DNA of 64,000 bases from Terriglobales bacterium (GTDB lineage Bacteria; Acidobacteriota; Terriglobia; Terriglobales; Acidobacteriaceae). The DNA lies in the NCBI GenBank assembly GCA_035573675.1, contig DATMAB010000027.1:310001-374000 (forward strand), written 5' to 3'. The translations under genes and the position numbers were made by a program. Shown piece by piece: positions 198 to 1,175 of this stretch; positions within the stretch are counted from its first letter, which is position 1; each line of letters starts with the position of its first letter. Below the pieces are notes generated by a model. That model was not told the DNA's origin, made no database searches, and worked only from the letters and a program-made list of their open reading frames with translations.

Positions 198-1175
198 CTA
201 ACCACTCACCACGGCTTTTTCCGCCGGCCGTATCGCCACCAGGTCGAAGTGTTCCAGCTCGTACCCGGCGGTCACCCAGGCGTCGAAGCCGCCCTCCAGC
301 GGCCGGACACGGCTGAATCCGTGATCCATCAGCATGCGCGCCACACGGGCGGCCGAGGCCTCGTTCGGTCAAGTGCAGTAGAGGATGATCTCCCGATCTG
401 CGGGCAGTTCCGGCACCTTGCGTTCCAGTTCGGTCGCATCCAGCAGCAGCGCCCCCGGGATGCGCCGCGGATCGCCCCGCCGCGCCGCGGGCGAGCGCAC
501 GTCCACCACCACCGGCGCCTTCCCTTCCGCGATCAGGCGGTTCAATTCTTCCACCCCGATGCGTGCCAGCCGCAACTCGTTGTAGAACCGCTTCCGCTCC
601 CGCCACTTCACGAAGATGAACACCCCCAGCGCCGCGCCCACAATCACCAGCGCCCATCCTCCCAGGCTTTCCAGGTAGGTGATCACGCGGTCGATGGCGT
701 CATGGAAGATCATTCCCAGCCCGATGCCCAACCCCGCCCAGATCACTGCGCCCATTCCGTCGTAGATGAGGAACGCCGCTGCTCCCAGCCGGGTTGCGCC
801 GGCCACCGGCGGCGCCACCGTCGAGAATCCCGGAACGAACTTGGCCACGATCAGCGAGCGCGCGCCCCAGCGCTCAAACAATGACTCCGTCTGCCGCACG
901 CACGAAACCGGCGAGAGCGACACGCGGCACAGCGCGCTCAGCACCCGATGCCCGTGGTACCGCCCCAGTCCATACCATGCCGTATCCGCGATCAGGCAGG
1001 CCAGCACCGCGGCCGCCAACAGTTCCGGCCCCGAGTGCAGCCCCATGCCCACGAGCGCGCCCGCCACCAGCAGCGTCGGGAACGCCGGAATCGGCAGCCC
1101 GAACTGCTCCCCCAGCACGTTCAGGAATACGAACGGCAGCCCATACTGCGCCACTTTGGAGGAAAGGTCGGTCAC
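198..1175 (-). CDS. DedA-family membrane protein fused to rhodanese domain, with in-frame UGA
   Basis: The N-terminal ~200 residues form a DedA/SNARE-associated (VTT) membrane domain with several hydrophobic helices; the VAKFVPGFSTVAPPVAG stretch is a DedA hallmark. Residues ~215-325 form a rhodanese domain (VVVDVRSP near the start). The frame meets TGA at 369-371, right after LYCT in the rhodanese active-site loop. The same frame then continues for 56 residues (PNEASAARVARMLMDHGF, then GGFDAW) to a TAG at 198-200, and these residues complete a normal rhodanese fold. In relatives, as I remember them, the interrupted position is usually a second Cys (YC-x-C-PNE). It is therefore either a selenocysteine codon, a TGC-to-TGA nonsense change or a base error. 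A strict annotation would end at 369 with 268 residues. Likely role: membrane protein with sulfurtransferase or redox function; substrate unknown. Confidence 0.8.
339..351 (-). promoter_or_regulatory. candidate bacterial SECIS-like hairpin downstream of the in-frame UGA
   Basis: On the minus strand, 18-30 nt after the UGA at 369-371, CGCC pairs with GGCG around the loop CGUGU. Bacterial SECIS elements lie just downstream of the UGA and usually have a G near the 5' side of the apical loop, which this has. The stem is only 4 bp and the region is GC-rich, so it could arise by chance. Confidence 0.25.

Follow-up and report, generated by a model that had tools for sequence, protein, structure and literature searches.

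A gene that encodes a DedA/VTT membrane protein fused at its C terminus to a rhodanese domain is located on the minus strand (positions 198 to 1175) of the window, the 64,000-nucleotide stretch of Terriglobales DNA analyzed here, and the in-frame UGA at positions 371 to 369 almost certainly encodes selenocysteine (Sec), as judged from comparative sequence evidence. The window corresponds to C27:310001-374000 of a 3.16-Mb assembly with 28 contigs and a completeness of 99%. Under the standard code, the open reading frame starts with GTG at 1175, stops at the TGA, and encodes 268 amino acids ending in ...EIILYCT, in agreement with a preceding sequence-only reading, which had placed the stop directly after LYCT. 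When the TGA is read through, 56 further residues (PNEASAARVARMLMDHGF...GGFDAW...) follow up to a TAG at 200 to 198, the real stop as indicated by full-length relatives, and complete the rhodanese domain of a 325-amino-acid protein with U269. The VTT/DedA domain (PF09335; residues 29 to 154, positions 1091 to 714) scored 45.3 bits, above the Pfam gathering cutoff of 33.9, and the rhodanese domain (PF00581; residues 209 to 302, positions 551 to 270) scored 49.5 bits, above the cutoff of 22.2. The latter crosses the TGA, consistent with the earlier claim that the 56 in-frame residues finish this domain. SelB and a Sec-tRNA(UCA) would decode the UGA as selenocysteine, a stem-loop just 3' of the UGA would direct the insertion, and the product would be a 325-residue DedA/VTT membrane protein whose C-terminal rhodanese carries the active-site loop C267-T-U269.

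The codon was compared across 300 genomes of the window's family and then in a phylum-wide search of Acidobacteriota. The best matches in the family search contained one in-frame TGA, and most of the weaker ones contained none. At this codon, TGA is present in 70 genes, distributed over 68 Acidobacteriota genomes with 12 family codes; 55 related genes have TGC or TGT, and only four divergent paralogues (of 129 genes) have Ser or Arg. One scan leans toward Cys forms because one of its six peptide patterns contained Cys. In all TGA genes, the TGA is placed exactly at the YCT-x-PNE position (369 to 371 in the window), and the Cys-form relatives read YCTCPNE, which bears out both the motif of the sequence-only reading (YC-x-C-PNE) and its proposal of a C-x-U pair in which UGA takes the place of Cys. 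The first Cys of this loop, C267 (positions 375 to 377), is invariant (129 of 129 proteins). The nearest relatives have TGA, not TGC: a same-genus genome (G025) has the same TGA in a protein that is 91% identical, and the four nearest relatives outside the family (G590, G515, G392, and G431), with identities of 57% to 59%, all have TGA. As in other bacterial selenoproteins, the in-frame UGA is aligned with Cys or Sec and has homology on both sides.

Several variants were observed in the same comparison. Seven further divergent Sec DedA-rhodanese proteins (L139, L140, and L143 to L147) have P, L, Q, or A after the YCTU of the loop, and two genomes, G050 and G511, contain two TGA copies each. 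L148 to L151 form a divergent paralogue group with a CxS or CxR loop, in which Leu replaces R227 in all four members. The in-frame TAA or TAG codons seen in a few relatives are normal stops near the C terminus, and the in-frame stop in the divergent paralogue L151 lies far upstream of the loop.

The sequence-only reading had left room for a nonsense mutation or base error, by which the DedA protein would be truncated or the gene a pseudogene, with the remaining rhodanese sequence as a relic. Although the standard code does end the frame at this TGA, a chance stop or base error is refuted by the same-genus genome and 68 further genes, all of which share this TGA. The codons 3' of the UGA are also conserved under purifying selection, with a dN/dS of 0.30 between the window genome and its genus-mate (53 codons, few changes). 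This value is higher than the 0.11 of the codons 5' of the UGA, a point against the selenocysteine reading that rests on few differences. With Sec machinery present in the TGA genomes as well, the probability of a nonsense mutation or base error is negligible.

The window genome encodes SelA (457 bits), SelB (358 bits), and SelD (369 bits), together with selC, a tRNA-Sec with a UCA anticodon (tca; 69 bits), so that all four components sought for bacterial selenocysteine synthesis and insertion were found. The SelD gene (L017, G000:C27:396936-397865), which lies outside the window, contains an in-frame TGA of its own, and SelD is thus probably a selenoprotein here too. Every TGA genome contains at least one component of the Sec machinery, and SelA is missing from many Cys-form genomes. 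Within the window's family, a strong SelA match was obtained for 44 of 46 genomes with the TGA form and for 15 of 39 with the Cys form (Fisher P = 6e-9; genome lists matched by hand). The two TGA genomes of the family without SelA (G119 and G184) possess selB and tRNA-Sec. Outside the family, selB scored above the cutoff in 21 of 22 TGA genomes, and the remaining genome (G392), with a weak selB, has tRNA-Sec. These three genomes were rejected as exceptions to the link with the machinery since tRNA-Sec was found in each, and absences of machinery genes are soft in general because most of the genomes are drafts.

Readthrough of the UGA by means other than selenocysteine, either by a near-cognate tRNA inserting Trp or Cys or by leaky termination, would yield both a DedA-only and a full-length product. 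Partial termination at Sec-UGA codons is usual, and a short DedA product may therefore exist, which accords with this explanation. However, the homologues align Cys and never Trp at this site, the stop is always TGA and never TAA or TAG, the Sec machinery is present in the TGA genomes, and a hairpin following the codon is specific to the TGA genes, so readthrough of this kind is very improbable. Selenocysteine, as first suggested by the sequence-only reading, is supported instead by the Sec genes, the conserved TGA, and the family-wide hairpin, and none of the refuting outcomes named in that reading was observed.

The bSECIS-like hairpin of the window is located at positions 354 to 336, which are alignment columns 18 to 36 counted from the T of the TGA. 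Columns 18 to 24 pair with columns 30 to 36, with a 5-nucleotide loop between them; counted from the last base of the UGA, the family stem spans nucleotides 15 to 33 and the loop nucleotides 22 to 26. Of the 70 Sec genes, 68 to 70 keep the four apical pairs and all have a G at loop position 26; this is the hairpin shape expected for a bSECIS element, with an early G in the apical loop. The strongest sign of the hairpin is that synonymous sites are fixed in the Sec genes and free in the Cys genes: the Ala codon at +7 is GCC in 69 of 69 Sec genes (background, 0.35) and the Val codon at +9 is GTG in 57 of 57 (background, 0.45), whereas the Cys genes are mixed at both. In the first set of genes, stems of 5 bp or more were predicted for 41 of 43 Sec genes versus 3 of 50 Cys genes, and synonymous recoding gave a mean of about 1.6 bp. 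Covariation in the stem exceeded that of 500 shuffles but is modest because the stem is nearly invariant; both sides change in only two pairs, and RNAalifold retains the four apical pairs only.

The hairpin of the window itself is shorter. Positions 351 to 348 pair contiguously with 342 to 339, the loop at 347 to 343 (CGUGU) has its invariant G at position 346, and C338 is bulged; the window's own clade has a shorter stem with a bulge. The stability of this stem of 4 contiguous bp plus a bulge is unexceptional relative to synonymous recoding (z = -0.26), and the argument for the hairpin consequently rests on the clade-wide pattern. The small hairpin with a G in its loop that the sequence-only reading had noted holds at the family level, but its span is 15 to 33 rather than 18 to 30 nucleotides after the UGA, and the window's stem is short.

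Phylogenetic trees, unrooted and with the Sec/Cys column masked, required about 11 to 13 changes between Sec and Cys (11 in the first tree and 12 to 13 in the enlarged tree), of which at least 7 are on well-supported branches; counts from unrooted trees do not by themselves give the direction of exchange. The window gene and that of its genus-mate cluster with seven Sec genes of other Acidobacteriota families with modest support (SH-aLRT 86), and this Sec group adjoins proteobacterial Cys genes. The first tree had pointed to an independent origin of Sec in the window gene from among the proteobacterial Cys genes; this was unsupported once other Acidobacteriota families were added. Two pairs of Cys forms, L059/L111 and L062/L113, are nested within Sec clades. 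In L059 a 7-bp stem survives, but its loop no longer has the G; L062 retains 5 bp together with the loop; and the genomes of L111 and L113 (G192 and G152) still encode SelA and SelB. Nesting, hairpin relics, and retained machinery together make these Cys forms look like products of a recent Sec-to-Cys change.

The solved structures that match the rhodanese part are sulfurtransferases and the rhodanese domains of NAD(P)H-dependent persulfide and coenzyme A-persulfide reductases. A structure model of it (mean pLDDT of 80; 14-sequence alignment) has the rhodanese fold, with Z scores of up to 18.1 (3tp9) to solved rhodaneses; phmmer with the rhodanese part alone matched no solved structure, whereas a profile search did. 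The canonical catalytic Cys position corresponds to U269 in the ungapped alignment with 6mxv and to C267 in the gapped alignment with 6pfz, and the rhodanese nucleophile may be either residue because the two structures align differently. Redox or persulfide chemistry at the CxU motif, by way of a persulfide or a thiol-selenol pair at the membrane, has an even chance of being its function.

Two Cys residues of the membrane domain, C83 (positions 927 to 929) and C92 (positions 900 to 902), are unexpectedly invariant across all 125 CxU and CxC proteins, and both are missing from the three other VTT proteins of the window genome. At least one of them is lost in three of the four CxS/CxR paralogues. 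Their invariance and this loss suggest a functional link between the membrane cysteines and the CxU loop. A relay by which the C-x-U pair would exchange electrons or sulfane sulfur, in either direction, with C83 and C92 is plausible, though less likely than not. Slightly less probable is the wider proposal of a membrane redox enzyme, in which C267-x-U269 would exchange with C83/C92 within the DedA lipid-transporter fold, selenium or redox state would control DedA activity, and selenium shortage would cause premature termination and leave a DedA-only protein. The protein may instead be a selenoprotein whose rhodanese is a sulfurtransferase and whose DedA part does no more than hold it at the membrane, and neither C83/C92 nor lipid transport would be functionally tied to it. 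The alternative concerns the functional part only and not the selenocysteine, and its probability is appreciable, somewhat short of even. It agrees with the rhodanese fold, which matches simple sulfurtransferases and persulfide reductases, and with the DedA part, which does not have some of the undecaprenyl-phosphate flippase residues of the genome's canonical paralogue, but leaves the pattern of C83 and C92 unaccounted for.

Both halves of the protein have known counterparts. A table published in 2026 lists 119 prokaryotic selenoprotein families, including five rhodanese forms (PMC13188914). Among these, NF041203 (rhodanese_LYCAU; "Rhodanese-like domain-containing protein form 3", CxU) shares the Y-C-x-U loop, YCTU in the window protein, and is the best NCBIfam match of every Sec form tested. 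However, its model describes a 126-position stand-alone rhodanese without a membrane domain, and the scores of the window protein (78.9 bits) and of the Sec forms tested (73 to 94 bits) are below its cutoff of 115 bits. TsoB (NF045694), a rhodanese/DsbD fusion-like selenoprotein, is likewise a rhodanese selenoprotein in a fusion, but its partner is DsbD-like rather than DedA, it has two Sec residues in UxxxxU, and the window protein scores 10.4 bits against its cutoff of 805. DedA-rhodanese fusions of subfamily COG0586 are known (PMC10127716), for example, Pseudomonas aeruginosa PA1209 (PMC12893004), and they have the same arrangement of an N-terminal DedA/VTT domain and a C-terminal PF00581 domain, but they were described without Sec; the proteobacterial DedA-rhodanese members in our comparison (L051 to L057) have a Cys codon. 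The VTT domain is shared with the DedA undecaprenyl-phosphate flippases (UptA, NF052604), from which the window protein differs at acidic and Arg positions, as seen against the genome's canonical paralogue, and by a score of 39.7 bits against a cutoff of 250. The role of the rhodanese in DedA-rhodanese fusions was called unclear in PMC10127716, which also cites a possible link of DedA to selenite resistance (Ledgham 2005).

No DedA protein is present in the table of 119 families (PMC13188914), DedA and rhodanese are unmentioned in the deep-Sep study (PMC12013277), and no paper joining selenoprotein, rhodanese, and DedA was found in the open-access literature. CxU rhodaneses and DedA-rhodanese fusions are thus known separately, and the Sec-containing fusion is unreported in the open-access literature found. 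Since no curated NCBIfam model is matched above its cutoff, the Sec form would probably be truncated at the UGA by standard annotation.

With the DedA-rhodanese protein, the catalogue of selenoproteins appears to gain a membrane protein that is widespread in soil Acidobacteriota, with 68 sampled genomes and 12 family codes. Its repeated exchange of Sec and Cys, with hairpin relics in Cys-form genomes that retain Sel genes, offers a natural system for the study of selenocysteine loss, and the co-conservation of C83 and C92 provides a first testable idea for why the fusion of rhodanese and DedA exists.
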